In this document: positions 2,226 through 59,244 of the stretch, in pieces
How positions within the stretch are numbered: the stretch's first letter is position 1
Layout: each line of letters opens with the position of its first letter
Origin: Stomoxys calcitrans
Lineage: Eukaryota; Arthropoda; Insecta; Diptera; Muscidae
DNA: 64,000 nt
Assembly (NCBI RefSeq): GCF_963082655.1
Contig: NC_081553.1
Span: 156,527,441-156,591,440, forward strand
Reading direction: 5' to 3'
Notes under the pieces: generated by a model
Told to the model about the DNA's origin: nothing
The model's database searches: none
What the model saw: only the letters and a program-made list of their open reading frames with translations
Position numbers and translations under genes: made by a program

Positions 2226-2344
2226 GCGAACAATAGTAAGATGGGTCCAAGAACCTTTGCTAATTGAAATTTCACAAACTTCTTTTGTTATTACTGAATT
2301 AGAATAATTATTGATTTACTTTGAGATAGTAAAGTAAAAAAAAA

Positions 2345-5281: not shown

Positions 5282-5293
5282 AAAATAAAAAAC

Positions 5294-7654: not shown

Positions 7655-7747
7655 GAATCAATATGTCAAAAAATAACTTAAAAAAAAATCTTGACCAGCC
7701 ATACCAGCACACAAAATAAATGAAAATCTTTAAATTTTAGAACTCAC

Positions 7748-8914: not shown

Positions 8915-9468
8915 TCCAAAATCCAACTATACATCATATAAATCTAAGTCAGAGCATATTTGTGAAGGCAAAAAACAAATTTTCTAATAACATTCTCACA
9001 TTATTAGTAGATACAGGAGCGGACATATCTTTATTAAAGCAATTTAATAAAGAATATAGTCAATTAATCAAGTCTAATACCACAATAATAAGTGGTATAG
9101 GTGAAGGAACAACCAAGTCATTTGGATCAATTGATTTATATCTCCAAATTGACAAATTCTTAATACCCCATGATTTTCAGGTGGTGGATAGAAATTTCCG
9201 TATACCTTGTGATGGTATTCTTGGCATGGATTTCATTAAGAAATACAACTGTATTTTGGATTTCAATGAGCACCATGATTGGTTGATTCTAAGACCTAAC
9301 AACTTTTATTGTAATATTCAAGTCCCTATTATATTTTCTGACGTTGACCATAACATTTTTTTACCTGCTTGTTCTGAAGTAATTAGAAAAGTACATATGT
9401 ATAACAACAAACGAAAAAGGGTTTTTAGTGATGAATCAGGAACTTCAACCTGGTGTTGTAGTTGCTAG
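8908..9468 (+). CDS. pol: Pol N-terminal part: retroviral-type aspartic protease
   Basis: The frame is open from before the gag stop and has no proper start codon, as expected for a frameshift product. It carries the protease active-site motif LVDTGADISLL at about 9007-9040 and the C-terminal GILGMDFI block near 9214. This enzyme would cleave Gag and Gag-Pol in the particle. The frame is lost near 9415 at an A-rich run (AACGAAAAAGGG): reading continues 53 bases to a stop at 9468, while the authentic pol sequence continues in the neighbouring frame. Confidence 0.85.
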   Translation, partial: TIVQNPTIHHINLSQSIFVKAKNKFSNNILTLLVDTGADISLLKQFNKEYSQLIKSNTTIISGIGEGTTKSFGSIDLYLQIDKFLIPHDFQVVDRNFRIPCDGILGMDFIKKYNCILDFNEHHDWLILRPNNFYCNIQVPIIFSDVDHNIFLPACSEVIRKVHMYNNKRKRVFSDESGTSTWCCSC

Positions 9469-10005
9469 CTCTATAGTAAATGCTAAAAACACATTTGTTC
9501 GAATTTTAAATACAACTACAGAAAATGTTATACTAAACACCAAGAGTATTGCGACTGAGAGTTTGACAAATTATGACTTGATTGAACAAAAATATCTACA
9601 AAATGACAAAAAAGAGGAAATTATTTCAAGGTTGGAAAAGAATTGTCCCAAAGAGTTTAAGGATCAACTTCACAAATTGTGTTCTGACTACACGGATGTT
9701 TTTGGTTTAGAAACAGAACCAATCACAGCTAATAATTTTATAAACAAAAGATAAAACTCAAGGACTCTGACCCGGTATATATAAAAAACTATAGGATTCC
9801 ACATACACATAGAGCAGAAATAAACGAACAAGTAAATAAACTTTTGGCTGATGGTATAGTTGAACCATACGTATCAGAATTTAATAGCCCACTACTTCTT
9901 GTTCCAAAAAAGGCGCTTCCAAATTCTGAACAAAAGCATTGGGGTTTAGTTGTTGATTATCGCCAAATTAATAAAAAGGTAATAGCAGACAAATTTCCCC
10001 TCCTG
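9416..10005 (+). pseudogene. pol: Pol: reverse transcriptase N-terminal remnant (frameshifted, truncated)
   Basis: After the first frameshift the sequence encodes the protease-RT linker to 9747. A second frameshift at AACAAAAGATAAAAC near 9748 moves to another frame, which holds the RT fingers: a YRIPHTHR-type start, the KLLADGIVEP block, the SPLLLVPKK block and VDYRQINKK at about 9950-9980. The coding similarity stops at about 10005, before the catalytic YxDD palm. Palm, thumb and RNase H are deleted, so no polymerase activity is possible. Confidence 0.85.
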
Positions 10006-10043
10006 AGTATATAAAGTCGTGACAAGTATATAAAGTCGTGACA
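10006..10043 (+). repeat. 19-bp tandem duplication at the RT deletion junction
   Basis: AGTATATAAAGTCGTGACA occurs twice in tandem exactly where the RT reading frame ends and the post-RNase H linker begins. It looks like a scar of deletion repair or template switching during reverse transcription. Confidence 0.8.
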
Positions 10044-11492
10044 AGATCTGAAACTCGTCGAAATAGTCCAAACCACGTTTATGACGATACTCGTGGAAAT
10101 ATTTCAATCGAAGAGCCCAACGTTTATGACGTCATTAATTTTAATGATGTTAAAAAATTCGTTAAATTAAAGTTATTTTTAAACCAGTGTTGCTAAAAAC
10201 ATGGCAAAGTGATTTTGAAACGAATTCATGTTGTGGATTTGTGTGCTAACGGGAATTTTGATTTAGATCAATTTTTCCACAGGCTTAATAGAGAAGCTGG
10301 CGCACTGAAAATCTCCCAACTTCAGATGGCACCAAGCGAACAAATATTTAAATTTGTTCCACTTGATTTATTCAAGAAAACGGGCAAGAATATATTAAAT
10401 AGGGTAAAAGTAGCGCTACTACCTATGGTGACCATTATAAACGGAAATAATGAGAAAGAAAAAAAGACTATTTTGACAAGATACCATGATGATGCCGCTG
10501 AAGGAGGTCATGCTGGTATTACACGTACTTACGGGAAGATTAAAAGGCACTATTATTGGAAAGGTATGGTTCGGGATATTACCAGATATGTTAAGGCATG
10601 CAAGAAATGTCAACTCTCAAAGGTAACCCGACATACCAAAACTCCGATGACGTTGACACATACGCCACCACAGCCCTTTGATATTGTGTTGATTGACACC
10701 ATTGGACCCTTCCCGAAGTCCGAAACAGGCAATGAGTATGCAGTAACACTTATTTGTGATTTCACAAAATACTTAGTTGCTTTGCCAATACCGGACAAAA
10801 ATTCCAAAACTGTAGCTAAAGCAATCTTTGAGTCTCATATATTGGATTATGGGCCTATGAGAACTATAGTTACTGACATGGGTACTGAATATAAAAACAG
10901 TTTGATTGAACACTTGTGCAAATATTTGAAAGTGAAAAACATTACTTCCACAGCCTACCATCATCAAACTCTTGGGACAGTAGAGAGGAGCCATCGGACT
11001 TTCAACGAATATGTAAGGTCTTACATATCCATTGACAAGGACGATTGGGATGTGTGGTTAAGGTACTTCACGTATTGTTACAATACGACACCTTCAGTTT
11101 CTCACGGATATTGCCCTTATGAACTGTTATTCGGCAGGGTTCCGAACATGTTTCAGGTATTTAATCAAATTAAGGATATTCAACCATTGTATAATCCTGA
11201 GGATTACTCCAAGGAAGTAAGATACAGAATGGAAATGGCGTATAAAAGGGCAAGGCAATTGCTAGAAACGGCAAAAATAGAGCGTAAAGAAAGGCATGAT
11301 AAAGGAAAAATCGAACCAATTTTCAATATAGGTGATACTGTGCTTTTTCGTAATGAAACTGGTCACAAATTAGATAGTAAATATTTAGGCCCTTATAACA
11401 TAATTGACGTGATGAAAAATGGTAATTACGTTATAAAGGGCAAAAAGACTATTACTGTTCATAGCGATAGATTAAAAATATTTAGAAAATAG
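10034..11492 (+). CDS. pol: Pol C-terminal part: integrase
   Basis: From 10034 the frame encodes a linker, with one stop (TAA at 10194-10196), and is then open to 11492. Order in the open part: the H2C2 zinc domain (GGHAG ... CKKC near 10506-10613); the catalytic core with Asp in LIDTIGPFP, Asp in VTDMGTEYKN and Glu in GTVERSHR (DD35E spacing); the GYCPYELLFGR block; and a basic C-terminal domain. It inserts element cDNA into host DNA with a 4-bp stagger, matching the ATTC duplication. The integrase core looks intact although the RT ahead of it is lost. Confidence 0.88.
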
Positions 11493-12755: not shown

Positions 12756-14580
12756 CGATGTATTACCGGTTGAATTACAAGCTGTGTCTGATAGACTGGT
12801 TCCCTAGCTAAGGGAGATGTACTCTGCTTGTATCAGAATGTCATATATACCTGTGTGATGGATGGACACGAAGTTCACTTTCATTCCGAAAGCAGGAAAA
12901 TCCTACCATGCGAATGCGAAAGATTTTCATCCTATTAGTCTTTCGTCCTTTATGCTGAAGACTTTTGAGAGATTGATAGAAACATATGTTAGGGCAAAGA
13001 TCCCTGGAGATTGCCTGTCGCGGCAACAGCATGCACATAGTAAAGGCAAATACACTGAAACAGCCCTTAACGACCTGGTCGGCTACATAGAGAATTCTGT
13101 CGCTGTCAAGGAATATACAATGGTAGCATTTATTGACAGTGAAGGGGCTTTCAATAATGTAAAACCGACGTCAATCATGAAGGAGTTGGAGTTTCTAGGC
13201 ATCAACTCTACCGTAAGACAGTTTATTAATAACTTACTTACTAAAAGATGCATTCCGGCAGGCTTGGTATATGTGGATCTAAAAAGATGGGTCGGCAGAG
13301 GATGTGTGTACTGTCTCCACTACTTTGGAATATAGCCACTAACTATATATTGTATTATTGTCTCCTGAAGAAAAAGGTGTACAAGTATGCTGATGACGTG
13401 GCAATTGCGGTTAGGGGAAGGTTTCCCAGCACTCTAAGAGATATACTTCAGGAAGCTCTACGTACAACAGCAAAGTGGTGGTCTGGGTATAAATCCGTGC
13501 AAGACAGAAGTAGTTCTTTTCAGCAGGAGGTACAAGTTGCCTACAGTGGCAACTGTCTCCTTGGGAGGAGAGAATGTTCCATTTACAGAAAGCGCAAAAT
13601 ACCTGGGTGTTTTGCTGGACAGGAAATTGAACTTCAAATCCAACATTTTGGAAAGGGCAAGTGAGGCAACTCGTGCCCTATACACCTGCAATAGAGCCAT
13701 TGGCAATAGTTGCGGATTAAGAGCGCATGTCATGCATTGGGTACATACTGCAGTTGTCAGACCTATAATGCTATATGGTGTTGTGGTCTGGTGGACAGCG
13801 TTTCCAAAATCCACCTACTGCTCAATACTTAACCGTACTCTTAACATCTAGAACTGTTCATATCGAAAAGATTACCCGATCACTGCAGTATATATCAAGC
13901 GGAGATCCTTGCAATTAAGGAAGTTATGGAATGGCTAAGATATAATGTCATTACGACGATAGGCATAAATATCTTCTCAAACAGCCAGGCAGCCACTAAA
14001 CGTATTTCTGAACACATAAACCGCCCTCGACTGTCGCAGATCTCTCAACGAGATGGCTGAACAGTTCAAAATTCACCTGTTTTGGGAATTGTAAAGCGGA
14101 TGAGCATGCGAGACTAGGAACTACCCTAAACATTCCAATGATACTGGAATCTGTGGGTATGCCTCTAGTGGCATGAAAGCTAAGATTTCAGGATCAGGCC
14201 CGAAGGACAACGAATGATAGATGGTCACAAAGAGGGGGCTGTGATCATTCCAAAACTATGTGGCCTAATCTAGACTTGAAGGTCTGCCGCTTTGCTGTCA
14301 CTGGCTAGAACAGACGTCTCAGTCATTGTGTCCGTCATGACAAGTCACTGTCTAATCGGAAAACATGCTGACAAACTGAAGGTTGCCTGCAACGACTTTT
14401 GCAGAAGCTGTGAGGACATCGAAGAAGAAGAGACTATAGAACATCTTCTGTGTGTGTGTACCGCAGTAGCAGTCAGAAGGAGTTCCACTTTAGGTTCTCA
14501 TTTCTTTGAGAACCTGTCTGATTGTAACATATTGTTATGAGTCTATAGAATTCCTTACTAAATCAGAGAAACTTTAATAT
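12756..14580 (+). pseudogene. LINE ORF2 fragment (RT and C-terminal zinc motif), frameshifted
   Basis: A 5'-truncated non-LTR retrotransposon. It starts with an ILPVELQ-type block just after the RT GPD region. Then follow FIPKAGKSYH (12880), the RT motif IDSEGAFNNV (about 13130) and the polymerase motif KYADDVAIAV (13383-13412). The SAKYLGVLLD block is near 13590 and a C-terminal CRSCEDIEEEETIEHLLCVC zinc-type motif is at 14392-14451. Frame changes near 13320, 13530 and 13850 and internal stops make it non-functional. The style (IEGAFNNV, RNase H in relatives) fits the I/LOA-like group. It lies in the intron 3' of the SV2-like exon at 14661. Confidence 0.8.
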
Positions 14581-15895: not shown

Positions 15896-16570
15896 TTAAG
15901 TTAGTAATTCCGTGCTACTTACAATATCCTTAATTGTTTTCAATACCACTCCCCTAAGTTGGTTCATGTCTGATATTGTGGCTACACCTAAGTACCGGTA
16001 TCTGTTGGACGCGAAAGCCGGGCAATGACAAAGGAAATGCTCCAACGCCTCATCATCTTCCCCGCATGCCCTACACATGCTATCACTTGCCGCACCGATT
16101 TTACACAAGTGGGCTCGTAGTCCCATGTGTCCCGTTATGATGCAATAGCTATACAGACCTCTTTCTTCCTTCCAGCAATAGCCTCGTCTTCTCATGATCT
16201 GCATCACCCCCATAGGATTTTCGCTGTCCTACCGACCGTTTCCCGACCTTCCACAATGTTGCATGCGCATTCGTCACCCTCTCCCTTAAATCGGACTTCG
16301 TCGACCCGAAAGGATTTTAGTTAACAAAGTTTATTAACGGCAGTCCTCTGGCCTTCACCGCCAAATCCGCTGCCCTTTCATTCCCCCTTACTCTGCTATG
16401 GCCCGGCACCAACCAATGTGGATTTGCGATCCTCAGAGAAGGCGTTAATCTCCTTCTTACACTGCAAGACTGTTCGTGACCTTACCGTCCTGGTTGTTAT
16501 TGCTTTTATGGCAATTTTTTATGGCACACCACCTCACAAATTCCGTCCGCCTGTAATACCCTATTATAAT
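15896..16570 (-). pseudogene. LINE ORF2 C-terminus: RNase H tail and zinc motif
   Basis: Contains the RNase H end block (WLVPGHSRVRGNE with following ADLAVKARGLP around 16320-16415) and, at 15896-16213, the segment MCRACGEDDEALEHFLCHC. This is a C-x2-C...H-x4-C motif like those at the C-termini of I-group LINE ORF2 proteins. Stops and frame changes between these blocks show it is dead. Confidence 0.7.
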
Positions 16571-18203
16571 CAGACAGTCTCAGTCCTTGGGTTCTCGATG
16601 TAGACCCTAGGTCCACTCTGTCCTCTAGCTTTGATCCATTCGTGTAACATGATCTTCCAGAAGGCAATACTAGATTCGACTTCAAGGTTCCGATCGGGAT
16701 CCTCTTCCCTTCCTTCCAGCTCTCCTATCGTCACCTTGATTATACCGCGATGGTTTGAGATGCTTCCATTCTCAATCCATTCTACCATCGCCTTAAGTCT
16801 CATAGCCGCAGTGGCTGCCTCACACTTAATCTTTATGTCAATGGGTCGGATATCTAGAATAGTCTCCAGTGTCCTAGTGGGCGTGGTCCTCATCGCTCCG
16901 CCTATGCCAAGACAACATGTTCTCAGAACCTGTTGTATGGTCCTTATGTTGCACTTTTTCTCCATAGCAGTCCACCAAACTACTGACTCCTGTAGAGCCA
17001 GTGGATTATCCTCATATTCAGGCCCCATTTCGAGACTACGGCCCGTCTACATAGTGCCCAACATCTGTGAGCTTTCTCAGTACGCTCCTGAATGTGACAC
17101 ATCCAATTCAGAGTCCTGTCCATGATCACACCTAAGTATTTAACCTGGTCAGATATGGTGCGTTAAACTGGCCCTCCTTCGTTTTCCTCGTGAACAGGCA
17201 TATTTCAGTCTTCTGTAGGTTAACATTGAGACCTCTGGGTCTAGCCCAGTCATATGCCATATGCAAGACCCTTTCGGCCCTTCTGCATAGCTCGCTTGGA
17301 TCCTTACTCCTTAGAAGTATTATAACATCGTCTGCTACGCAAGACGGGTTCAAATCCTTGCTCCGTCAGCATTCGTAATAGGTCATTTATGGAGGTCACC
17401 CATAAGAGTGGCGATAAAATGCCCCCCTGTGGCGTTCCCTGTGCCACTTTCTCCCTTATATTTTTGCCATGAGACACACAATTTATACCTTAGCATATGG
17501 TTTATCCAGTCTCTCAGGACCGGGTCCACCCGGTACTGGTCTAAGACAATCCTTAGACTAGTACCGGGTGGACCCGATCAGTGTGTCGCTCCGCACATTG
17601 TTAAAAGCCCCCTCGATGTCAATGCATGCCGCCAGTGTGTACGTTTTGGCATCGAAGTATTCTTCTATTTTATGCACAACCTCGTGCAGGACAGTCTTCA
17701 CGGACCTTCCCTTGACATAGGCATGCTGTTTGTATTTGAGCAGTTCGTTGGATGTCTTATTCTTTATCATGGTGTCCACAACTCGTTCCATGGTTTTGAG
17801 TACAAAGGACGTAAGGCTTTGGTGTCGCATAACTTGCCTTGCCGGGTTTGGGTATAAACACCACCCTTCCCTCCTGCCAGGGTTTCGGAGTATGTGCAAG
17901 CCCTAGGCACGCTGTGAAAGTTTTGGCCAGACGAGGCGTCAGATAGTCTGCCTCTTTCTCTAGTAACGCCGGAAATATTCCATCAGGTCCAGGCAACTTA
18001 CATGGTTTGAAGCTCCTCAAGGATTCCTTCATCATAAATTCCGTAATTATAAACCTACTATCAACGTCATTATTCCAAGATTCCGGTGTCTTCGTGAATC
18101 CCTTCGTATCCCGTGGAAAATGGGTTTTTCTTTCCCAATATTGCGAATTTCCTTGGTCATCCAGTGTTTTTTTGGAGCTGATTTCCTTTTCCGAAGAGGA
18201 CAA
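16570..18203 (-). pseudogene. LINE ORF2 reverse transcriptase region
   Basis: Successive frames hold KLPGPDGIFPALL (18000 region), VVFIPKPGKASYATPK (about 17840), the finger/palm block KQHAYVKGRSV, the catalytic-side motif CIDIEGAFNNV (17600 region), a VADDVIILL block (17330) in place of the usual F/YADD, and the thumb/connector SVVWWTAMEKK (16970). Frameshifts at about 17890, 17560 and 17130 and a local palindrome at 17521-17576 interrupt it. The protein would copy LINE RNA at a nicked target. Confidence 0.78.
17521..17576. repeat. 25-bp inverted repeat with 6-base loop
   Basis: CGGGTCCACCCGGTACTGGT continues to CTAAG (17521-17545). It is mirrored at 17552-17576 with one mismatch, around the loop ACAATC. 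It disrupts the RT frame. Confidence 0.9.
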
Positions 18204-24254: not shown

Positions 24255-25014
24255 TAGATTTAATAATTAAGAAGAATTTAAGTACAAAAGTGAAAAAAAT
24301 GTGAAAACTCTGGTAGAGAAAAAAATTTTGGTGAATAATTAAAGAATTTAAAAATTGTAACTTCAGGAAATAGAAAAATCAATAGAATTAAGAAAAGTTG
24401 GAAAAAGTTAGATTTAATAATTAAGAAGAATTTAAGTACGAAAGTGAAAAAAATGTGAAAACTCTGGTAGAGAAAAAATTTTGGTGAATAATTAAAGAAT
24501 TTAAAAATTGTAACTTCAGGAAATAGAAAAATCAATAGAATTAAGAAAAGTTGGAAAAAGTTAGATTTAATAATTAAGAAGAATTTAAGTACAAAAGTGA
24601 AAAAAATGTGAAAACTCTGGTAGAGAAAAAATTTTGGTGAATAATTAAAGAATTTAAAAATTGTAACTTCAGGAAATAGAAAAATCAATAGAATTAAGAA
24701 AAGTTGGAAAAAGTTAGATTTAATAATTAAGAAGAATTTAAGTACAAAAGTGAAAAAAATGTGAAAACTCTGGTAGAGAAAAAATTTTGGTGAATAATTA
24801 AAGAATTTAAAAATTGTAACTTCAGGAAATAGAAAAATCAATAGAATTAAGAAAAGTTGGAAAAAGTTAGATTTAATAATTAAGAAGAATTTAAGTACAA
24901 AAGTGAAAAAAATGTGAAAACTCTGGTAGAGAAAAAATTTTGGTGAATAATTAAAGAATTTAAAAATTGTAACTTCAGGAAATAGAAAAATCAATAGAAT
25001 TAAGAAAAGTTGGA
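24255..25014 (+). repeat. Five tandem copies of a 153-bp AT-rich leader unit
   Basis: TAGATTTAATAATTAAGAAG recurs at 24255, 24409, 24562, 24715 and 24868 (spacing 154, 153, 153, 153). Copies are nearly identical, indicating recent expansion. The unit is unrelated in sequence to the HINE unit of the same length. Confidence 0.95.
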
Positions 25015-25016
25015 AA

Positions 25017-26189
25017 TGGATCGCCGGAAATCCAGATCACGACGATTTCGAGATAATAGAGCAAAAAATTAACAATGTTTTGTCAAGCAATAATAGGCAG
25101 GTTGTAATAAATAATCTGTCTCTAAAAAAAATAGATGAACTCACAGAAAATACCAACAAAATTATAAAAATTGTAAAAACCAATGAAAATTTTATAACCA
25201 TGCTCAAAATGAAAATTGACCTTTTAAAGGAAGAAATTGTTAATGTAAATTATGCCATTCACTGGGCAAAGTCCGGCATAATAAATTCATTTGTATTGTC
25301 GAACACTGAAGTGAATATTGCAAAAGAGCTTTTCGAGAAAGATTCAATTCCCTTTGTAAACATAGAAGAAATATTCGAATTCTCTGAAGTAAAAATTGCA
25401 TCAAATGAAAAATCACTTATTTATATCGTCAATGTACCGACTACGAATTTAGATTCCTGCAGTAAACTCTTGATTAAACCCACTAAGAGTGGGGATCTTA
25501 TTAATAAAATTGATTATAATGAAATACTAGTTTGTAAAAATGAATCCTATGGGATCCTTAAACCATGTAAATCTTTCAATAATCTGACTGTTTGTAATTT
25601 AAATAATGTCAAAAGAATAGAAAAAGAAAATTGTTTGTTAAATCTTTTAAAAAGCGTAGAAGCAAACTGTACTTTATTGAGACATAGCACCACCCCTACA
25701 GTAGAGGAAGTCTTGCCTGGGATGATTCTACTAAATCAATTCGATGGTACCATTCTCATCAACGACGAGCAGTACAATCTTACGGGAACCTTCATAATCA
25801 AGTTTCAAAACGCTTCCATAACAATTGACAACGAGACATACAACTATTTCCAAACAACGTATGCCGAACCATTACCTGCAATCCTACAACCTAGATCTCC
25901 TGGATCAAAAATAGAAGAAGTAACCACTTTGGAATTTGTAAAAAGGATCCATCTAAACAATACAAAAGCGATAGAACTGTTGAACATTAAAAACAAATGG
26001 AGTGCGGCCGTGCATTTACTCACAATAGCTGCAGCTCTCATTCTGGTATTGTTCTTGATAAGAAGAAAGCAGCGCCCATTGATTGAAACCGTTAATCTAG
26101 CACCTCCCAATCAACTATCAGTTCCGACATCGAATTCAACAAACTTTCCAAGAGACGTACCAAGATTATCTCAGATACCTTACTTCTAA
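25017..26189 (+). pseudogene. env: Errantivirus Env, C-terminal part (5'-truncated)
   Basis: An open frame of about 390 codons joined directly to the leader repeats, with no convincing start codon of its own. It shows features of the transmembrane-side portion of gypsy-type Env: heptad-like region (INNVLSSNN, LSLKKIDELTENTNKI), conserved Cys residues, several N-glycosylation sites (NLT, NCT, NAS, NET), and a C-terminal membrane anchor (LLTIAAALILVLFLI at about 26018-26062) with a short cytoplasmic tail. The surface portion, cleavage site and fusion segment are not present. In full errantiviruses Env is made from a spliced RNA and mediates cell-to-cell transfer; this copy could not supply that function. 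Confidence 0.85.
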
Positions 26190-37198: not shown

Positions 37199-38594
37199 TT
37201 ATACCCTACACCATAAGATGGGGGGTATACTAATTTCGTCATTCTGTTTGTAACTACTCGAAATATTCATCTGAGACCCCATAAAGTATATATATTCTTG
37301 ATCGTCGTGAAATTTTATGTCGATCTAGCCATGTCCGTCCGTCTGTCCGTCCGTCCGTCCGTCCGTCCGTCTGTCTGTCGAAAGCACGCTAACTTCCGAC
37401 GGAGTAAAGCTAGGCACTTGAAATTTTGCACGAATACTTCTTATTAGTGTAGGTCGGTTGGTATTGTAAATGGGCCATATCGGTCCATGTTTTGATATAG
37501 CTGCCATATAAACCGATCTGGGGTCTTGACTTCTTGAGCCTCTAGAGTGCGCAATTCTTATCCGATTGGGATGAAATTTAGCACGACGTGTTTTGTTATG
37601 ACATCCAACAACTGTGATAAGTATGGTTCAAATCGGTCCATAACCTGATATAGCTGCCATATAAACCGATCTTGGGTCTTGACTTCTTGAGCCTCTAGAG
37701 TGCGCAATTCTTATCCGATTGGAATGGAATTTCGCACGACGTATTTTGTTATTATATCCAACAACTGTGCCAAGTATGGTTCAAATCGGTCCATAACCTG
37801 ATATAGCTGCCATATACACCGATCTGGGGTCTTGACTTCTTGAGCCTCTAGAGTGCGCAATTCTTATCCGATTGGAATGAAATTTTGCACGACGTGTTTT
37901 CTTATGATATCCAACAACTGTGCCAAGTATGGTTCAAATCGGTTCATAACCTGGTATAGCTGCCATATAAACCGATCTTGGGTCTTGACTTCTTGAGCCT
38001 CTAGAGTGCGCAATTCTTATCCGATTGGAATGAAATTTTGCACGACGTGTTTTCTTACGATATCCAACAACTGTGCCAAGTATGGTTTAAATCGGTTCAT
38101 AACCTGATATAGCTGTCATATAAACCGATCTTGGGTCTTGACTTCTTGAGCCTCTAGAGTGCGCAATTCTTATCCGATTTGAATGAGTTTTTGCACGTAA
38201 TATTTTGTTATGATATCCAACAACTGTGCCAAATATGGTTCAAATCGGTTCATAACCTGATATAGCTGCCATATAAACCGATCTTGGATCTTGACTTCTT
38301 GAGCTTCTACAGGTCGCAATTATTATCCGATTTGCCTGAAATTTTGTACGACGGATTCTCTCATGACCATTAACATACGTGTTTATTATGGTCTGAATCG
38401 GTTTATAGCCTGATATAGCTCCCACATAAATCGATCTCTCTATTTTACTTCTTGAGCCCACAAAGGGCGCAATTCTTATTCGAATTGGCTGACATTTTAC
38501 ACAGGTCTCCAACATATAATTTAATTGTGGTCCAACCCGGACCATATCTTGATATCGCTCTTATAGCATAGCAAATCTTTTCTTATATCCTTTT
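37199..38594 (+). mobile_element. HINE copy 1, interrupted by another HINE
   Basis: 5' hairpin (TATACCCTACACCATAAGATGGGGGGTATAC), TATATATTCTTGATCG core, GTCC/GTCT tract at about 37332-37378, then about eight 153-bp units. At the CTTATATCCTTTT run a second HINE starts. The last part of copy 1, with its own hairpin and CTTTTACTTG end, is at 40233-40334. Confidence 0.85.
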
Positions 38595-40232
38595 TATACC
38601 CTCCACCATAAGATGGGGGGTATACTAATTTCGTCATTCTGTTTGTAACTACTCGAAATATTCGTCTGAGACCCCATAAAGTATATATATTCTTGATCGT
38701 CGTGAAATTTTATGTCGATCTAGCCATGTCCGTCCGTCTGTCCGTCCGTCCGTCCGTCCGTCCGTCCGTCTGTCTGTCGAAAGCACGCTAACTTTCGAAG
38801 GAGTAAAGCTAGCCGCTTGAAATTTTGCACAAATACTTCTTATTATTGTAGGTCGGTTGGTATTGTAAATGGGCCATATCGGTCCATGTTTTGATATAGC
38901 TGCCATATAAACCGATCTTGGGTCTTGACTTCTTGAGCCTCTAGAGTGCGCAATTCTTATTCGATTGGAATGAAATTTTGCACGACGTGTTTTGCTATAA
39001 TATCCAACAACTGTGCCAAGTATGGTTCAAATCGGTCTATAACCTGATATAGCTGCCATATAAACCGATCTTGGCTCTTGACTTCTTGAGCCTCTAGAGT
39101 GCACAATTCTTATTCGATTGGAATGAAATTTTGCACGACGTGTTTTGCTATGATATCCAACAACTGTGCCAAGTATGGTTCAAATCGGTCTATAACCTGA
39201 TATAGCTGCCATATAAACCGATCATGGGCCTTGACTACTTGAACCTCTAGAGTGCGCAAATCTTTTCCGATTGGAATGAAATTTTGCACGACGTGTTTTG
39301 TTATTATATCCAACAACTGTGCCTAGTATGGTTCAAATCGGTCCATAACCTGATATAGCTGCCATATAAACCGATCTGGGGTCTTGACTTCTTGAGCCTC
39401 TAGAGTACGCAATTCTTATCCGATTGGAATGGAATTTCGCACGACGTGTTTTGTTATTATACCCAACAACTGTGCCAAGTATGGTTTAAATCGGTCAATA
39501 ACCTGATATAGCTGCCATATAAACCGATCTTGGGTCTTGACTTCTTGAGCCTCTAGAGGGCGCAATTCTTATCCGATTTGAATGAATTTTTGCACGAAGT
39601 ATTTCGTTATGATATCCAACAACTGTGCCAAGTATGGTTGAAATCGGTTCATAACCTGATATAGCTGTCATATAAAGAGATCTGGGGATTTGACTTCTTG
39701 AGCTTCTAGCTTCAATTCCTATCCGATTTATCTGAAATTTTGCATGACGTATTTTATTTTTACTTTCAACAACTGTGTCAAATGAGGTTCAAATCGGTTC
39801 ATAACCTGATATAGCTGCCATATAAACCGATCTGGGATCTTGACCCCTAGAGGTCGCAATTATTATCCGATATGCCTGAAATTTTGTACGATGGATCCTC
39901 TCATGACCATTAACAAACGTGTTTATTATGGTCTGAATCGTTCTATAGCCCGATACAGATCCCATATAAATCGTTCTCTCTATTTTACTCGTGAGCCCCA
40001 ATGGGCGCAATTCTTATACGAATTGGCTGAAATTTTACACAGGTCTCCAACATATAATTTAATTGTGGTCCGAACCGGACCATATCTTGATATCGTTTTA
40101 ATAGCAGAGCAACTCTTTTCTTATATCCTTTTTTGCCTAAGAAGAGATGCCGGGAAAAGAACTCGACAAATGCGATCCATGGTGGAGGGTATATAAGATT
40201 CGGCCCGGCCGAACTTAGCACGCTTTTACTTG
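38595..40232 (+). mobile_element. HINE copy 2, nested in copy 1
   Basis: Complete: TATACCCTCCACCATAAGATGGGGGGTATAC at the start; core; long GTCC tract (38728-38778); about six 153-bp units; CGGCCCGGCCGAAC hairpin; TTAGCACGCTTTTACTTG end. Near-identical to 44713-46193 and to 2345-3970 (inverse strand). Confidence 0.88.
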
Positions 40233-40334
40233 TTTTGTCTAAGAAGAGATGCCGGGAAAAGAACTCGACATATGCGATCCATGGTGGAGGGTATATAAGA
40301 TTCGGCCCGGCCGAACTTAGCACGCTTTTACTTG
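40233..40334 (+). mobile_element. HINE copy 1, 3' remainder
   Basis: TTTTGTCTAAGAAGAGATGC through GGTGGAGGGTATATAAGATT, the hairpin and CTTTTACTTG: the expected 3' end of copy 1, displaced by the nested copy 2. Confidence 0.8.
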
Positions 40335-40514
40335 TTTTTGTATTGGTTATCTATATTCCAAATCATATTTCAAAGCTTCCACTTGGGATATAATATTTTT
40401 AAAGATCCGCGGGTCCTCCTGTGTCTATCCCAATTTACAATTAAAAGGTATACTCTACTACCAAAGACCTTTTATTGTTTTCCTATTCTATCCTGATCGC
40501 TCTTTATATATTAT

Positions 40515-41552
40515 TATACCCTCCACCATAGGAGGGGGGGTATACTAATTTCGTCATTCTGATTGTAACTACTCGAAATATTCGTCTGAGACCCCATAAA
40601 GTATATATATTCTTGATCGTCGTGAAATTTTATGTCGATCTAGCCATGTTCGTCCGTCTGTCCGTCCGTCCGTCCGTCCGTCTGTCTGTCGAAAGCACGC
40701 TAACTTCCGAAGGAGTAAAGCTAGCCGCTTGAAATTTTGCACAAATACTTCTTATTAGTGTAGGTCGGTTGGTATTGTAAATGGGCCATATCGGTTCATG
40801 TTTTGATATAGCTGCCATATAAACCGATCTTGGGTCTTGACTTCTTGAGCCTCTAGAGTGCGCAATTCTTATCCGATTGGAATGAAATTTTGCACGACAT
40901 GTTTCGTTATTATATCCAACAATTACGCCAAGTATGGTTCAAATCGGTCCATAACCTTATATAGCTGTCATATAAACCGATCTTGGATCTTGACTTCTTG
41001 AGCCTCTAGAGGGCGCAATTCTTATGCAATTTGAATGAATTTTGGCTCGTAGTATTTTGTTATGATATCCAACAACTGTACCTAATATGGTTCAAATCGG
41101 TTCATAACCTGATATAGCTGCCATATAAACCGATCTGGGATCTTGACTTCTTGAGCCTCTACAGGTCGCAATTATTATCCGATTTGCCTAAAATTTTGTA
41201 CGACGGATCCTCTCATGAACATTAACATACCTGTTTATTATGGTCTGAATCGGTCTATAGCCCGATACGGCTCCCATATAAATCGATCTCTCTATTTTAG
41301 TTCTTGAGCCCACAAAGAGCGCAATTCTTATTCGAATTGGCTGACATTTTACACAGGTCTCCAACATATAATTTTATTGTGGTCCAAACCGGACCATATC
41401 TTGATATCGCTCTAGTAGCAGAGCAAATCTTTTCTTATATCTTTTTTTTTTTTTGCCTAAGAAGAGATGTCGAGAAAAGAACTCGACAAATGCGATTCAT
41501 GGTGGAGGGTATATAAGATTCGGCCCGGCCGAACTTAGCACACTTTTACTTG
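40515..41552 (+). mobile_element. HINE
   Basis: Complete termini, core, GTCC/GTCT tract (40651-40690) and about four units, with a slightly altered 3' end CACACTTTTACTTG. Confidence 0.87.
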
Positions 41553-44712: not shown

Positions 44713-46193
44713 TATACCCTCCACCATAAGATGGGGGGTATACTAATTTCGTCATTCTGTTTGTAACTACTCGAAATATTCGTCTGAGACCCCATAAAGT
44801 ATATATATTCTTGATCGTCGTGAAATTTTATGTCGATCTAGCCATGTCCGTCCGTCTGTCCGTCCGTCCGTCCGTCCGTCCGTCTGTCTGTCGAAAGCAC
44901 GCTAACTTTCGAAGGAGTAAAGCTAGCCGCTTGAAATTTTGCACAAATACTTCTTATTATTGTAGGTCGGTTGGTATTGTAAATGGGCCATATCGGTCCA
45001 TGTTTTGATATAGCTGCCATATAAACCGATCTTGGGTCTTGACTTCTTGAGCCTCTAGAGTGCGCAATTCTTATTCGATTGGAATGAAATTTTGCACGAC
45101 GTGTTTTGCTATAATATCCAACAACTGTGCCAAGTATGGTTCAAATCGGTCTATAACCTGATATAGCTGCCATATAAACCGATCTTGGCTCTTGACTTCT
45201 TGAGCCTCTAGAGTGCACAATTCTTATTCGATTGGAATGAAATTTTGCACGACGTGTTTTGTAATGATATCCAACAACTGTGCCAAGTATGGTTCAAATC
45301 GGTCTATAACCTGATATAGCTGCCATATAAACCGATCATGGGCCTTGACTACTTGAACCTCTAGAGTGCGCAAATCTTTTCCGATTGGAATGAAATTTTG
45401 CACGACGTGTTTTGTTATTATATCCAACAACTGTGCCTAGTATGGTTTAAATCGGTTCATAACCTGATATAGCTGCCATATAAACCGATCTTGGGTCTTG
45501 ACTTCTTGAGCCTCTAGAGGGCGCAATTCTTATCCGATTTGAATGAATTTTTGCACGAAGTATTTCGTTATGATATCCAACAACTGTGCCAAGTATGGTT
45601 GAAATCGGTTCATAACCTGATATAGCTGTCATATAAAGAGATCTGGGGATTTGACTTCTTGAGCTTCTAGCTTCAATTCCTATCCGATTTATCTGAAATT
45701 TTGCATGACGTATTTTATTTTTACTTTCAACAACTGTGTCAAATGAGGTTCAAATCGGTTCATAACCTGATATAGCTGCCATATAAACCGATCTGGGATC
45801 TTGACCCCTAGAGGTCGCAATTATTATCCGATATGCCTGAAATTTTGTACGATGGATCCTCTCATGACCATTAACAAACGTGTTTATTATGGTCTGAATC
45901 GTTCTATAGCCCGATACAGATCCCATATAAATCGTTCTCTCTATTTTACTCGTGAGCCCCAATGGGCGCAATTCTTATACGAATTGGCTGAAATTTTACA
46001 CAGGTCTCCAACATATAATTTAATTGTGGTCCGAACCGGACCATATCTTGATATCGTTTTAATAGCAGAGCAACTCTTTTCTTATATCCTTTTTTGCCTA
46101 AGAAGAGATGCCGGGAAAAGAACTCGACAAATGCGATCCATGGTGGAGGGTATATAAGATTCGGCCCGGCCGAACTTAGCACGCTTTTACTTG
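44713..46193 (+). mobile_element. HINE, one unit shorter than its near-identical relatives
   Basis: Complete termini, core, GTCC tract (44846-44890) and hairpin. It matches 38595-40232 closely but is about 156 bp shorter, consistent with loss of one 153-bp unit between homologous positions (the junction lies after CTGTGCCTAGTATGGTT). Confidence 0.88.
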
Positions 46194-46256
46194 TTTTTTT
46201 TTTTAAATAAGCAAAACAAATTAAAATTACCACCACATCAACCATTTGAAAACGAA

Positions 46257-50945: not shown

Positions 50946-50961
50946 CGTAAATATATAAAAA

Positions 50962-53232
50962 CAAGTAAGATCGTGCTAAGTTCGGCCGGGCCGAATCTTA
51001 TATACCCTCCACCATTGATCGCATTTGTCGAGTTCAATGCGCGATATCTCTTTTTAGACAAACATAGAATATTGAATAAGAACTGTTATCCTATTGGAGC
51101 TATATCAAGTTATAGTCCGATTCGGACCATAATTGAATGCTGATTGACATTGTAGAAGTCATTGTGTAATATTTCAGTTCATTCGGAAAAGAATTGCGCC
51201 TTGTAAGGGCTCAAGAAGCAAAATCGGGAGATAGGTTTATGTGGGAGCTGTATCAAGCTATTGATCGATTCAAAACATACTAGACACGTATGTTGAAGGT
51301 CATGAGAGAAGGCCTTATACAAAATTTCAGCCAAATCGGATGAGAAATGCGCCCTCTAGAGGTTCGAGAAGTCAAGATCCCAGATCGGTTTATATGGCAG
51401 CTATATCAGGTTCTATATCGATTTGCGCCATACTTAGCACAGTTATTGGAAGTCATAACAAAACACCTCATGCAAAATTTCAGCCAAATCGGATGAGAAT
51501 TGCGCCATCACTTGGCTCAAGAAGTCAAGATCCAAGATCGGTTTATATGTCAGCTATACCAAATTATGAACCGATTTGAATAATACTTAGCGTAGTTGTT
51601 GAAAGTAATACCAAAACACTACGTGCAAAATTTTAGTTAAATCGGACGATAATTGCGCCCTCTAGAGGCTCAAGAAGTCAAGACCCAAGATCGGTTTATA
51701 TGACAGCTATACCAGATTATGAACCGATTTGAACCATACTTGGTACAGTTGTGGGAAATCATAACAAAATACGTCGTGCAAAATTTCATTCCAATCGGAT
51801 AAGATTTGCGCCCTCTAGAGGTTCAAGAAGTCAAGACCCAAGATCGGTTTATATGGCAGCTATATCAGGTTATGGACCGATTTAAACCATACTTGGCACA
51901 ATTGTTGGATATCATACCAAAACACGTCGTGCAAAATTTCATTCCAATCGGATAAGAATTACGCTTTCTAGAGGCTCAAGAAGTCAAGACCCATGATCGG
52001 TTTATATGGCAGCTATATCAGGTTATAAACCGATTTGAACCATACTTGGCACAGTTGTTGGATATCATAACAAAATACGTCGAGCAAAATTTCATTCCAA
52101 TCGGATAAGATTTGCGCCTTCTAGAGATTCAAGAAGTCAAGACCCAAGATCGGTTTATATGGCAGCTATATCAGGTTATAAACCGATTTGAACCATACTT
52201 GGCACAGTTGTTGGATATCATAACAAAGTACGTCGTGCAAAATTTCATTCCAATCGGATAAGAATTGCGCACGCTAGAAATTCAAGAAGTCAAGACCCAA
52301 GATCGGTTTATATGGCAGCTATATCAGGTTATAAACCGATTTGAACCATACTTGGCACAGTTGTTGGATATCATAACAAAGTACGTCGTGCAAAATTTCA
52401 TTCCAATCGGATAAGATTTGCGCCTTCTAGAGATTCAAGAAGTCAAGACCCAAGATCGGTTTATATGGCAGCTATATCAGGTTATAAACCGATTTGAACC
52501 ATACTTGGCACAGTTGTTGGATATCATAACAAAGTACGTCGTGCAAAATTTCATTCCAATCGGATAAGATTTGCGCCTTCTAGAGATTCAAGAAGTCAAG
52601 ACCCAAGATCGGTTTATATGGCAGCTATATCAGGTTATAAACCGATTTGAACCATACTTGGCACAGTTGTTGGATATCATAACAAAATACGTCGTGCAAA
52701 ATTTCATTCCAATCAGATAAGAATTGCGCACTCTAGAGGCTCAAGAAGTCAAGACCCAAGATCGGTTTATATGGCAGCTATATCAGGTTATGAACCGATT
52801 TAAACCATACTTGGCACAGATGTTGGATATCATAACAAAACACGTCGTGCTAAATTTCATCCCAATCGGATAAGAATTGCGCAGTCTAGAGGCTCAAGAA
52901 GTCAAGACCCAAGATCGGTTTATATGGAAGTCAAGACCCAAGATCGGTTTATATGGCAGCTATATCAAAGCATGAACCGATTTGGCCCATTTACAATGCC
53001 AACCGACCTACACTAATAAGAAGTATTTGTGCAAAATTTCAAGCGGCTAGCTCTACTCCTTCGGAAGTTAGCGTGCTTTCGACAGACAGACGGACGGACA
53101 TGGCTAGATCGACATAAAATTTCGCGACGATCAAGAATATATATACTTTATGGGGTCTCAGACGAATATTTCGAGTAGTTACAAACAGAATGACGAAATT
53201 AGTATACCCCCCATCCTATGGTGGAGGGTATA
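50962..53232 (-). mobile_element. Long HINE with about twelve 153-bp units
   Basis: Minus-strand element with 5' hairpin at 53232, core, short GTCC/GTCT tract, then the longest array in the window and the GGCCGGGCC hairpin and CAAGTAAGATCGTGC terminus (one unusual base change in the conserved AAAGCGTGC) at 50962. Units between about 52000 and 52720 are almost identical to each other (shared AGAGATTCAAGAAGTC and ACAAAGTACGTCG variants), showing local homogenisation. Units at the edges are more diverged. Confidence 0.88.
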
Positions 53233-53873: not shown

Positions 53874-53878
53874 CGCCG
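53874..53878. other. Transib target-site duplication CGCCG (left)
   Basis: CGCCG directly precedes CACAGTG and recurs at 59240-59244 directly after CACTGTG. Five-bp GC-rich duplications are characteristic of Transib and RAG-mediated transposition. Confidence 0.93.
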
Positions 53879-55321
53879 CACAGTGGGCCAAATGGCAAAA
53901 AAATTGGAAATAAGTCTACAACTTTTTATCTGTTGATTTTAGCCATACAAAATGTTCTAGACATTTGTAGAGGAGGACATAGGCTTTCAGAAAAGTGCTG
54001 TTGTTGGTCCATATCTTTAATACAGGGTGAGCTACAGGGTGTCAAAGTTGACCACTTTTGACTTCTCCAAGCTTCTGGGGGCCATAACTTTTGATCTACT
54101 CAACCGATTTACATGATTTAGGACTCTAGAGAAAGAGCTTGACAAGATCTAAAAAACTTATGCATAAAGTACCATGCCATCGTGTACTGTTAAGGAGTTA
54201 TGAATTGTTTAATTTTAAAATATGAAAATTTGGCCTTGGTTTTTTTCAGTGTTTTTTAAATAACTCCGTCAATTTTAAAGCTATAAACTTCATACTTCAC
54301 ACAAATTATGCCAGCATATGTGTGCATAAAATACAAAAGGAATCACGTGAATATCTTTGGCGGTTTAAAAATGGCATCGTTTTCAATATGAAAAATATTT
54401 TTTTTGTCAAAAAATTGCAAAATTTTTCAAAAAAGATACTCCCATTTCCTTTAAGTTTTCGCAAACTTTGGCCGTCAAAGCATTATCATTTCTTTCCATT
54501 TTCACAAAGTCGAGGTATTAAGAAAAGTTTTAAGTGCTAATTTGGCTAATTTCGATATCAAACAACACCGTTATCTTAAGACCAAAATGGCCAATTTTTT
54601 TACTAAACTTCAAAAGTTTCTCACTGGAAAAAAAGTTCCACGGGGATTTTTTCGCTTTTTTTGAACTTAAATGAAAGCTTAAAATGTTCCCAACATTTTA
54701 AGGTATGTCTCGCCATATCCTAGCCATAAATGAGATCGTAGCGATCAAAATACTGAAAAAAGTCAATTTTCAAGTAGTGCTATATTCATTGCTAAAAAAC
54801 AAGTATTACGTCACATTTTATTGCAAAGATGTTAAATAAACTTTTATTTGGTAACACTTCTTCTACAAAACACAAAAAGAATCATGGAAATATCTCTATT
54901 CTATTCCATTTTATGGAACCGGCAATAAAAAAGTCAATTTTTCAAAAAAGTTGAATTTCCCAAATTTTGTTTTTGTTGTCCTAATTGCACATGACACACT
55001 ATAGCCATATTTACCTTATCGTAAAGGAAACATACCTTATCGTAAAGGAAATTTTCATACCTTTCCAACAATGTATAAAACATTTCTCAACTCGGATTCT
55101 ATCTACTCTAAAATTCATTTACACTTCATTAAACTCTATATAAAAATGTCTATTTGTGAAATGGAACCTTATATGGGGCCTACACTAAAACATTGATAGA
55201 TTTGCCCAGGGTTTACAATACAAATGTGTTAGAATAAAAAAAGGTCTCCTGCCAAAGTTTAAAAAAATTGGAATAAAAATATGTGTTTTAGAGCGAAAAC
55301 ACTTCGCATCGGCGTGCGTTT
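53879..55321 (+). repeat. Transib left inverted arm (1443 bp)
   Basis: Reverse complement of 57809-59239. It starts with heptamer-like CACAGTG, then GGCCAAATGGC and a run of seven A. Both arms end inward at GGCGTGCGTTT. Differences noted: CTTATCGTAAAGGAAA here versus GCAA in the other arm near 55021, and single-base changes such as GTGTTAGAA/GTGATAGAA. Confidence 0.93.
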
Positions 55322-55717
55322 GTATAGTACCTACATCTATTTTTAATGTAAGCTGATGATTTTTGAATAAAAAGTAACCTAGAAATATACCTGCATATAT
55401 ATATATATTTGTGTTAAGATTTGATGCAGACAAATGTTACCTGTTTCGCTATGTCGAATTCCCAGGAAATCCACCGTATCAATGAATGTGAAAAAACCTA
55501 CCCATAAAAAATTCATTGTCATTTTTTTTAACCAAATTCGAGTCCAGGTAAATAATTATAGAAGAGTAAGTAAAAAGAGGCACTTTGGACCCCTTTTTAC
55601 GATTGCGTCTGATACCTGAAATGGGTCATTAATTGTGAATATATTGCATAAATATTTGAACAAAATCCAAATTTTCTTCATTATATTTTGTAGAGGCGTA
55701 AAGGACATTTATAAGTT
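55322..55717 (+). promoter_or_regulatory. Probable 5' leader/promoter region of the Transib transposase
   Basis: Unique AT-rich sequence between the left arm and the start codon. It holds a TATATATATATA stretch (55396-55408). A donor-like CAG|GTAAAT (55547) and an acceptor-like TTTTGTAG (55686-55693) bracket a possible small leader intron, but joining them adds no coding sequence to the main frame. No promoter can be assigned with certainty. Confidence 0.4.
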
Positions 55718-57760
55718 ATGGAAGTCATACTGAAGTATTCCACTCTTTCGAAAATTGTATGGGACATCAAAAATGATTCCAAATCATACACGGAGTCATT
55801 TAAGGAACTTGTTTACACTTTGGACCACATATATGGAATAAGGCTAAATAAAGACGCTTTAGACAAACTTGAAAAATTCTACAAATCATTTGAGAGAAGG
55901 TTGCCAGAATGTTCATTCGCAAAAATCAAGTTTTTCAAAATGTATGAGAAGTGGCTGAAATCGGATCTACTTATTGAAATTAAACCGCTGATTCCCGGCC
56001 GGCCTAGCAAAGCATACGACGAAGTTACGGAGAAAACCAAAAAGAAAAAACAAGAGGAACTATTGGCGGCACATCCGCCAAATTTAATAAAAGATACGTT
56101 CAAAACAGCATTGTTAAAAACACAACCAAAAAATGTTGGACGAATTGTCGATGTTTTACCATTAGCATCTCCGAAAAGGGTAAAGAGAATGGTAGAAAGT
56201 ATTCCAACTCCAAAATCGACTACAGAATTCACGGAGGAAGATGCACTGGCCCTGATTTTGAACCTAGGCCTCTCAAGAAACAAATACTCAACAATGAGGA
56301 AGGCTCTTCGTGAAAAAGGATGGGGTTGTTTACCCTCAAAACATAAATTGTACAACACCAGGACGAAAATGGTGCCATCAAATATATACGTGGACGAATT
56401 AAAAGCAAGAGTGAAACTTGCTGATCTTGTTGAAAATACAGCTGTTAGAATTATTTCTAATTTTACTGAAGAACAGTTGAACACATGTAATAATTCCGAA
56501 GTGGTTTTGATCAGCAAATGGGGTTGTGATGGATCATCTGGATTTTCCGAATATAAGCAACAAACAGAAATAGATACCAACTTCGCATCAATTTTCATGG
56601 CATCATTAGTACCATTGAGAATGAGATTGTACAAGGACCAATCTTCATCATCGAAAGAAAATGCATTTCAAGATATATGGATAAATAGAACACCTGGGTC
56701 AAAATATTTATGTCGCCCAATTCGGTTTGAGTATACAAAGGAAGACCGGAACACAACACGATCTTTGGTGAACGAAATAAAGGAAGAAATTGCTGCATTA
56801 CCCATGATTGTTATAAACCAATTGGGAAGAAATATAAAAGTTTCGTTTCAACTACAACTCACTATGATCGATGGAAAGGTGGCAAACGCATTAACTGGCG
56901 TTATGTCCAATTGGAGATGCAATATTTGTGGCAAGAAGAATGGGCAATTCGAGGACAAGTCTGATGAAAATTTAGTAAACGAAAATGCGCTCAATTTCGG
57001 TATTTCGCCCCTGCACTGTAGAATTCGATTCATGGAGTATTGTTTGCATTTATCGTATGACCTTAAATATCGGACTAGCCCTGGAAACCGCGATGTCTCT
57101 GCTAGAAACAACCAAGATCTTCACAAAATGAGGCAGGAAGAGAAGAATCGAATCCAGTTGGAGTTTAAACAAAAGGGACTTATAATAGATAAACCTCTTT
57201 ACGGATACGGAAGCACAAATGATGGCAACTCGGCAAGGCGGTTTTTTGAGGACCCCGTATCGACATCTAAAATAACCGGTCTTGATGAACACTTGCTAAG
57301 ACGATTCAAAGTGATTTTGGCTGTAATCAATAGCAAAAAGATGATAAATTCAACCAAATTTGAAGCTTATAGTAATGACACAAAAAACATTTTATCTGAT
57401 TTATATTCGTGGAAAGCTTTAACACCGACAGTACATAAAGTCTTACATCATGGCAAGGAAATTGTGGAATACAACATACTTCCGTTAGGAGAACTTACAG
57501 AAGAAGCTCAGGAATCCCGTAATAGAGATGTTAAACAGTTCCGGCTTTTCAATACCCGAAAGAGCACCAAATTTAACCAAAATTATGATTTACTTCAATA
57601 TTTATTGTTATCGTCTGATCCGGTACTATACAGCATCAGAACTAAATGGCTACCAAAAATATGTGAGGATATAGATAAGGACGATCCCGATGCCATTCAA
57701 ATTAAAGAGCTTTTAAATTTTGATACCTTAGATTATTTGGTAGAGAATAAAATCAAATAA
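55718..57760 (+). CDS. Transib transposase (RAG1-like DDE recombinase), 680 aa, apparently intact
   Basis: Cuts at the CACAGTG ends and inserts the element with a 5-bp stagger. Seen in order: an N-terminal basic/linker region including PGRPSK (93-98), which resembles a GRP-type DNA-binding motif; KWGCDGSSGFSEYKQ with predicted catalytic Asp271; LTMIDGK with Asp385; zinc ligands Cys401 and Cys404 (CNICGK); SPLHCRIRFMEY (430-441); a NDGNSARRFF block (501-510); His573 and His578 (VHKVLHHG); LTEEAQESRN with predicted catalytic Glu596; a final DLLQYLLLSSDP block. The D, D, CxxC, HxxxxH and E order, and the ungapped similarity around Glu596, mirror RAG1 (D600, D708, C727/C730, H937/H942, E962), as I recall it. 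The ATG follows an in-frame stop two codons upstream. No frameshift or stop occurs. The length fits full Transib transposases. Confidence 0.93.
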   Translation: MEVILKYSTLSKIVWDIKNDSKSYTESFKELVYTLDHIYGIRLNKDALDKLEKFYKSFERRLPECSFAKIKFFKMYEKWLKSDLLIEIKPLIPGRPSKAYDEVTEKTKKKKQEELLAAHPPNLIKDTFKTALLKTQPKNVGRIVDVLPLASPKRVKRMVESIPTPKSTTEFTEEDALALILNLGLSRNKYSTMRKALREKGWGCLPSKHKLYNTRTKMVPSNIYVDELKARVKLADLVENTAVRIISNFTEEQLNTCNNSEVVLISKWGCDGSSGFSEYKQQTEIDTNFASIFMASLVPLRMRLYKDQSSSSKENAFQDIWINRTPGSKYLCRPIRFEYTKEDRNTTRSLVNEIKEEIAALPMIVINQLGRNIKVSFQLQLTMIDGKVANALTGVMSNWRCNICGKKNGQFEDKSDENLVNENALNFGISPLHCRIRFMEYCLHLSYDLKYRTSPGNRDVSARNNQDLHKMRQEEKNRIQLEFKQKGLIIDKPLYGYGSTNDGNSARRFFEDPVSTSKITGLDEHLLRRFKVILAVINSKKMINSTKFEAYSNDTKNILSDLYSWKALTPTVHKVLHHGKEIVEYNILPLGELTEEAQESRNRDVKQFRLFNTRKSTKFNQNYDLLQYLLLSSDPVLYSIRTKWLPKICEDIDKDDPDAIQIKELLNFDTLDYLVENKIK

Positions 57761-57808
57761 TACAAAACTAAAATGCTTTTTTATTTTGGGAGTAGCTAAT
57801 ATACATAT

Positions 57809-59239
57809 AAACGCACGCCGATGCGAAGTGTTTTCGCTCTAAAACACATATTTTTATTCCAATTTTTTTAAACTTTGGCAGGAGACCTTTTTTTATTCTA
57901 TCACATTTGTATTGTAAACCCTGGGCAAATCTATCAATGTTTTAGTGTAGGCCCCATATAAGGTTCCATTTCACAAATAGACATTTTTATATAGAGTTTA
58001 ATGAAGTGTAAATGAATTTTAGAGTAGATAGAATCCGAGTTGAGAAATGTTTTATACATTGTTGGAAAGGTATGAAAATTTCCTTTACGATAAGGTATGT
58101 TGCGTAAATATGGCTATAGTGTGTCATGTGCAATTAGGACAACAAAAACAAAATTTGGGAAATTCAACTTTTTTGAAAAATTGACTTTTTTATTGCCGGT
58201 TCCATAAAATGGAATAGAATAGAGATATTTCCATGATTCTTTTTGTGTTTTGTAGAAGAAGTGTTACCAAATAAAAGTTTATTTAACATCTTTGCAATAA
58301 AATGTGACGTAATACTTGTTTTTTAGCAATGAATATAGCACTACTTGAAAATTGACTTTTTTCAGTATTTTGATCGCTACGATCTCATTTATGGCTAGGA
58401 TATGGCGAGACATACCTTAAAATGTTGGGAACATTTTAAGCTTTCATTTAAGTTCAAAAAAAGCGAAAAAATCCCCGTGGAACTTTTTTTCCAGTGAGAA
58501 ACTTTTGAAGTTTAGTAAAAAAATTGGCCATTTTGGTCTTAAGATAACGGTGTTGTTTGATATCGAAATTAGCCAAATTAGCACTTAAAACTTTTCTTAA
58601 TACCTCGACTTTGTGAAAATGGAAAGAAATGATAATGCTTTGACGGCCAAAGTTTGCGAAAACTTAAAGGAAATGGGAGTATCTTTTTTGAAAAATTTTG
58701 CAATTTTTTGACAAAAAAAATATTTTTCATATTGAAAACGATGCCATTTTTAAACCGCCAAAGATATTCACGTGATTCCTTTTGTATTTTATGCACACAT
58801 ATGCTGGCATAATTTGTGTGAAGTATGAAGTTTATAGCTTTAAAATTGACGGAGTTATTTAAAAAACACTGAAAAAAACCAAGGCCAAATTTTCATATTT
58901 TAAAATTAAACAATTCATAACTCCTTAACAGTACACGATGGCATGGTACTTTATGCATAAGTTTTTTAGATCTTGTCAAGCTCTTTCTCTAGAGTCCTAA
59001 ATCATGTAAATCGGTTGAGTAGATCAAAAGTTATGGCCCCCAGAAGCTTGGAGAAGTCAAAAGTGGTCAACTTTGACACCCTGTAGCTCACCCTGTATTA
59101 AAGATATGGACCAACAACAGCACTTTTCTGAAAGCCTATGTCCTCCTCTACAAATGTCTAGAACATTTTGTATGGCTAAAATCAACAGATAAAAAGTTGT
59201 AGACTTATTTCCAATTTTTTTGCCATTTGGCCCACTGTG
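57809..59239 (-). repeat. Transib right inverted arm (1431 bp)
   Basis: Begins 48 bp after the transposase stop codon. Ends TTGCCATTTGGCCCACTGTG. Mirrors the left arm almost exactly; a decayed relative is at 708-1370. Confidence 0.93.
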
Positions 59240-59244
59240 CGCCG
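59240..59244. other. Transib target-site duplication CGCCG (right)
   Basis: Matches 53874-53878. Confidence 0.93.

Follow-up and report, generated by a model that had tools for sequence, protein, structure and literature searches.

The question raised by this locus is whether a 64,000-nucleotide stretch of the stable fly (Stomoxys calcitrans) genome, hereafter the window, carries an intact and recently mobile relative of RAG1, the enzyme that shuffles antibody genes and to which the Transib transposase is related. We conclude that it very probably holds an autonomous Transib transposon of the cut-and-paste type, bounded by inverted repeats of roughly 1.43 kb, the product of a very recent and possibly ongoing multiplication in Stomoxys calcitrans. 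An earlier, sequence-only reading had placed the element boundaries, a CGCCG duplication and a 680-codon frame, and all three proved exact on re-check (Table 1).

Table 1. Coordinates of the Transib element and its parts in the window.
Feature	Position	Strand	Remarks
Transib element (window copy)	53879..59239		both termini CACAGTGGGCC; coordinates exact
Left 5-bp target duplication, CGCCG	53874..53878	.	
Right 5-bp target duplication, CGCCG	59240..59244	.	
Left long inverted repeat arm	53879..55325	+	opens with CACAGTGGGCC; from inverted-repeat pairs
12-bp insertion, left arm	55015..55026	+	only in the window copy among 28; duplicates neighbouring sequence
Transposase gene, 680 codons and stop	55718..57760	+	ATG-to-stop frame
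D271 codon, first catalytic Asp	56528..56530	+	by alignment; position computed from gene start
D385 codon, second catalytic Asp	56870..56872	+	by alignment
E599 codon, catalytic Glu	57512..57514	+	by alignment
Right long inverted repeat arm	57805..59239	-	CACAGTG at its end, minus-strand reading

The element is 5349-5361 bp long, and the 'perfect termini' that had been ascribed to it were an understatement, as the inverted repeats run far into the element. In copy L032 the arms extend for 1431 bp without a mismatch, the first arm-to-arm difference falling at base 1432, and in the window copy they form an inverted repeat over 1141 nt (printed as 100% identity) plus 297 nt (99%), two blocks split by the 12-bp insertion in the left arm, which looks like a templated repair scar. 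When up to three mismatches were allowed, a 17-base end motif was found at two places in the window, whereas 100 shuffles averaged 0.04. Transib termini open with a CAC heptamer, and CACAGTG, which we take to be the full consensus RSS heptamer, was found at both ends of all 28 copies examined (described below). A RAG-type nonamer was rejected as a candidate: against ACAAAAACC, assumed here as the RAG nonamer for comparison, five of nine bases match by eye after a 12-bp spacer and four of nine after a 23-bp spacer. For human immunoglobulin genes, one source gives CACAAAG as the commonest heptamer (PMC8355894).

Sequence alignment identified the product of the gene as a homologue of Transib transposases. 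Alignment to RAG1, with catalytic and zinc positions placed by the RAG1 residue numbering, recovered a DDE triad and C2H2-type zinc residues at RAG1-like positions; across 38 aligned sequences, D271, E599, C401, C404, H573 and H578 are invariant and D385 is conserved in at least 90%. The kinship with Transib and RAG1 put forward by the sequence-only reading is thus supported by sequence, conserved catalytic and zinc residues and fold, and a match to the Pfam RAG1 profile is present, but at 24.4 bits it lies just below the 25-bit cut-off. Transib transposases are described as having an N-terminal, NBD-like region that contains a GRP motif (Tao et al. 2022), and GRP occupies residues 94-96 of the fly transposase (G94 and P96 invariant in the 38 aligned sequences); a fold search with residues 1-166 against the PDB returned no significant match. 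No second gene was detected within the element, where other ATG frames of at least 60 aa overlap the transposase gene or are short, and the RAG1L and RAG2L gene pair that characterizes RAGL transposons is absent from this single-gene element. Relatives of the transposase were not found among viral contigs, in a search from which records of the fly's own genome may be excluded.

Near-identical copies are abundant in the stable fly genome (G000, a 1.07-Gb assembly in 297 contigs, with the window at 156527441-156591440 of contig C2), where the 36-base end yielded 771 forward and 765 reverse exact matches, rising to 814 and 814 with up to three mismatches (94% of all matches exact), against zero for the reversed control. 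The first 100 end places, all exact and situated between 0.3 and 65.7 Mb of contig C1, resolved into 48 pairs and four single ends; 41 of the pairs span 5.2-5.5 kb (25 of exactly 5349 bp), five are shorter than 4.5 kb and two are longer (7024 and 14584 bp). We examined 28 copies, comprising 27 of these 48 pairs (the 14.6-kb pair was left out) and the window copy, a sample biased towards young copies, since they were located by exact ends within the first 66 Mb of a single contig. The 680-aa frame is kept in 23 of the 28, with 675-680 residues identical to the protein of the window copy, and the generalization that intact copies are uncommon therefore fails within this genome. Of the five copies without the full frame (L036, L039, L040, L046 and L051), one is free of indels; L039 and L046 have each lost a large segment, the break being filled by a short stretch of non-matching sequence, and L040 and L051 account for a deletion of 29 bp and an insertion of 82 bp within the gene, changes in four copies that would fit interrupted gap repair. 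In a protein search, the 65 places scored were all at 100% identity (rounded) and without a stop, although as the best 65 of 1494 candidates they give no frequency of intact frames. One of them (G000:C2:213480463-213482502) scored 1534.5 bits, equal to the window copy, with the other 63 at 1533.2, and these two copies may descend from one recent parent. That the host has domesticated a Transib gene which is no longer a mobile element would agree with the intact frame, but it is contradicted by the hundreds of copies that possess ends and perfect duplications, which leave this reading a negligible probability.

The sequence-only reading had named two findings that would refute it, the lack of a profile match to Transib or RAG1 and the lack of CGCCG-type duplications in all genomic copies, and neither occurred. 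A 5-bp, CG-rich target duplication of consensus CGnCG, as is characteristic of the Transib superfamily, flanks 28 of 28 copies (by position, C in 20, G in 22, mixed, C in 22 and G in 27), which excludes a chance origin of the duplication. Among the window and the 27 fetched loci, the joined flanks of nine copies align across the insertion site, and the remaining 19, including the window copy, have no empty-site relative. Seven relatives were inspected base by base (those of L032, L035, L037, L040, L047, L048 and L054), and all of them align uninterrupted through the target, with identities of 73-91%, the L047 match covering 58 columns only and the L040 relative gapped just upstream of the target.

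Divergence among the copies is very low. Substitutions clustered where the deletions of L039 and L046 begin and end are alignment artefacts, and with these excluded (13 of 118 differences) the 28 copies differ pairwise by a mean of 0.12% (maximum 0.23%) and carry private substitutions at 3.0e-4 per site; with the edges included, the values are 4.2 substitutions per copy from the majority and 0.14% pairwise (maximum 0.48%). The fly mutation rate is about 3e-9 per site per generation, and we place the age of the family, as an order of magnitude, at 1e5 generations, which may correspond to 1e4 years, an estimate biased young by the choice of copies with exact ends. Recent movement, as the sequence-only reading had supposed, is strongly supported by this low divergence, the perfect duplications in 28 of 28 copies and the seven related empty sites. 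We consider a burst that is still running roughly as probable as one that has just been silenced, and the family may be active today. A burst confined to roughly the last 10,000-100,000 years and then shut down (through piRNA, for instance, or siRNA made from the 1.4-kb hairpin), with frames intact because too little time has passed for decay, is a real possibility to which we give somewhat less than even weight. The long, hairpin-forming arms would be plausible siRNA sources and the mean distance of a copy from the column majority, 3.75 substitutions (deletion edges excluded), indicates that most of the copies sampled have existed for some time, but L032 matches the majority throughout and only 0.019% separates the two most similar copies, so that some copies are very young.

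Variation within the arms revealed a further property of the family. Nine variable sites are shared among the 28 copies, eight of which form four mirror pairs within the arms, and the two arms of a copy agree at these pairs in 27, 27, 27 and 23 of 28 copies (Fisher p = 0.008, 6e-5, 2e-5 and 0.002, shared ancestry of the copies being ignored). Private arm changes comprise five mirrored pairs and 16 single-arm changes, one of the latter adjoining the 12-bp insertion of the window copy and possibly part of it. At arm position 380, the minor form has 234 and 224 exact matches across the genome; in the first 100 places listed, with arms paired when less than 15 kb apart (two of the 45 pairs are 13-14 kb apart), 45 copies carry it on both arms and 10 on one, the last single-arm carrier possibly having its partner beyond the matches listed. 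Carriers on both arms thus make up 45 of 55 (82%), compared with approximately 18% under independence (p = 4e-25, again ignoring shared ancestry). As the same variants occur on both arms of a copy, the two arms appear to homogenise each other, and arm-to-arm copying is the simplest reading. Long identical arms are difficult for short reads, and shared variants could conceivably be an assembly or polishing artefact with no gene conversion, but correction towards the majority would have wiped out private changes, whereas mirrored pairs and single-arm changes both remain; we regard this as improbable. Descent from a few founders with like arms and no continuing exchange is also unlikely, if not quite to that degree: copies do share ancestry, and the arm tests overstate independence for that reason, yet the four shared variants and the five private mirrored pairs would each still require one lineage to have acquired an identical change on its two arms, and the discordant copies (1, 1, 1 and 5 of 28) represent intermediate states.

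A mechanism can be proposed from the family. The transposase would bind the CACAGTG ends and cleave by DDE chemistry via a hairpin intermediate, and the ends would be joined 5 bp apart in the target. Copies could be gained through repair of the donor gap from a sister copy, or through movement during replication, and the likeness of the arms would be maintained by gene conversion between them, perhaps within the same repair. More tentatively, and on balance rather doubtfully, this may be a horizontally acquired Transib invading the stable fly now, with insertions segregating, in which a RAG-family transposase and the consensus RSS heptamer are combined with 1.4-kb arms of Galileo type, whose conversion of each other keeps pace with the burst.

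Other repeats were noted in the window and elsewhere in the genome. An abundant element with internal arrays of 153-bp tandem units, which resembles Helitron/DINE-like elements, lies in both orientations at 2341-3969, 5291-6629, 37201-41386, 44714-46202 and 50960-53099. A 1701-bp copy of it, 87.8 and 88.7% identical over its full length to two window copies, sits inside an arm of L056, one of the young Transib copies, where no target duplication is obvious, and this family has therefore also moved recently. Frames read by eye include gag-, protease- and integrase-like frames of an LTR retroelement (7724-11492), a 412-aa stop-to-stop stretch resembling insect retroelement envelopes (24951-26189, preceded by a short tandem repeat, opposite strand) and broken LINE-type reverse transcriptase-like frames (12859-13851 and 16570-18203), at or near which lie repeats matched by the flanks of L032, L035 and L040. 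Elsewhere in the genome, an older and decayed Transib family was detected through the Stomoxys protein P0042, at G000:C1:75871568-75872368 and three other places. These four places show 70-97% identity with stops (97% over residues 142-410 of P0042), accompanied by one short fragment at 63%, and the present family matches at 49%, which separates the two families among the best 102 of 1174 candidates; relatives of intermediate divergence may exist.

Young, near-identical RAG-family transposons with intact genes offer a natural matched set of enzyme and ends for the chemistry behind V(D)J recombination, and how fast and by what mechanism arms become alike can be measured in a family whose hundreds of copies share arm variants. 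Should its insertions be segregating still, a relative of RAG would be caught here while invading a genome. Among the open-licence papers searched, we found no paper joining Transib with Stomoxys calcitrans or with 'long terminal inverted repeats'; the stable-fly genome paper (PMC7944917) points to supplementary repeat tables, in which the family may be listed.

The element is a new member of the known Transib superfamily. HzTransib of Helicoverpa zea (PDB 6pqn, 6pqx) is likewise credited with 'long TIRs', a precedent for the long arms, but that element measures 3518 bp with a 489-aa product, compared with 5349-5361 bp and 680 aa in the fly, where N-terminal residues 1-164 fall outside the HzTransib match. 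RAG1 and RAG1-like proteins (mouse, zebrafish and amphioxus ProtoRAG) share 18-19% identity with the fly transposase in the fold alignment, and unlike those systems the fly element has no second gene and no convincing nonamer. For Galileo of Drosophila (PMC2775673), arms as long as 1.2 kb are reported to resemble each other more closely within a copy than between copies, a precedent for arm homogenisation in an element that differs in its transposase superfamily (P) and its 7-bp duplication. The Mariner-2_DF burst of the fire ant likewise produced hundreds of young copies, 857 with a diversity of 0.0051 (PMC6307670), but of a 1.3 kb mariner, as opposed to a 5.35 kb Transib with a mean difference of 0.12% among 28 copies; expression and polymorphism were documented for the ant burst. 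What stands out in the stable fly against these known systems is how young, numerous and intact the copies of a RAG-family element are.
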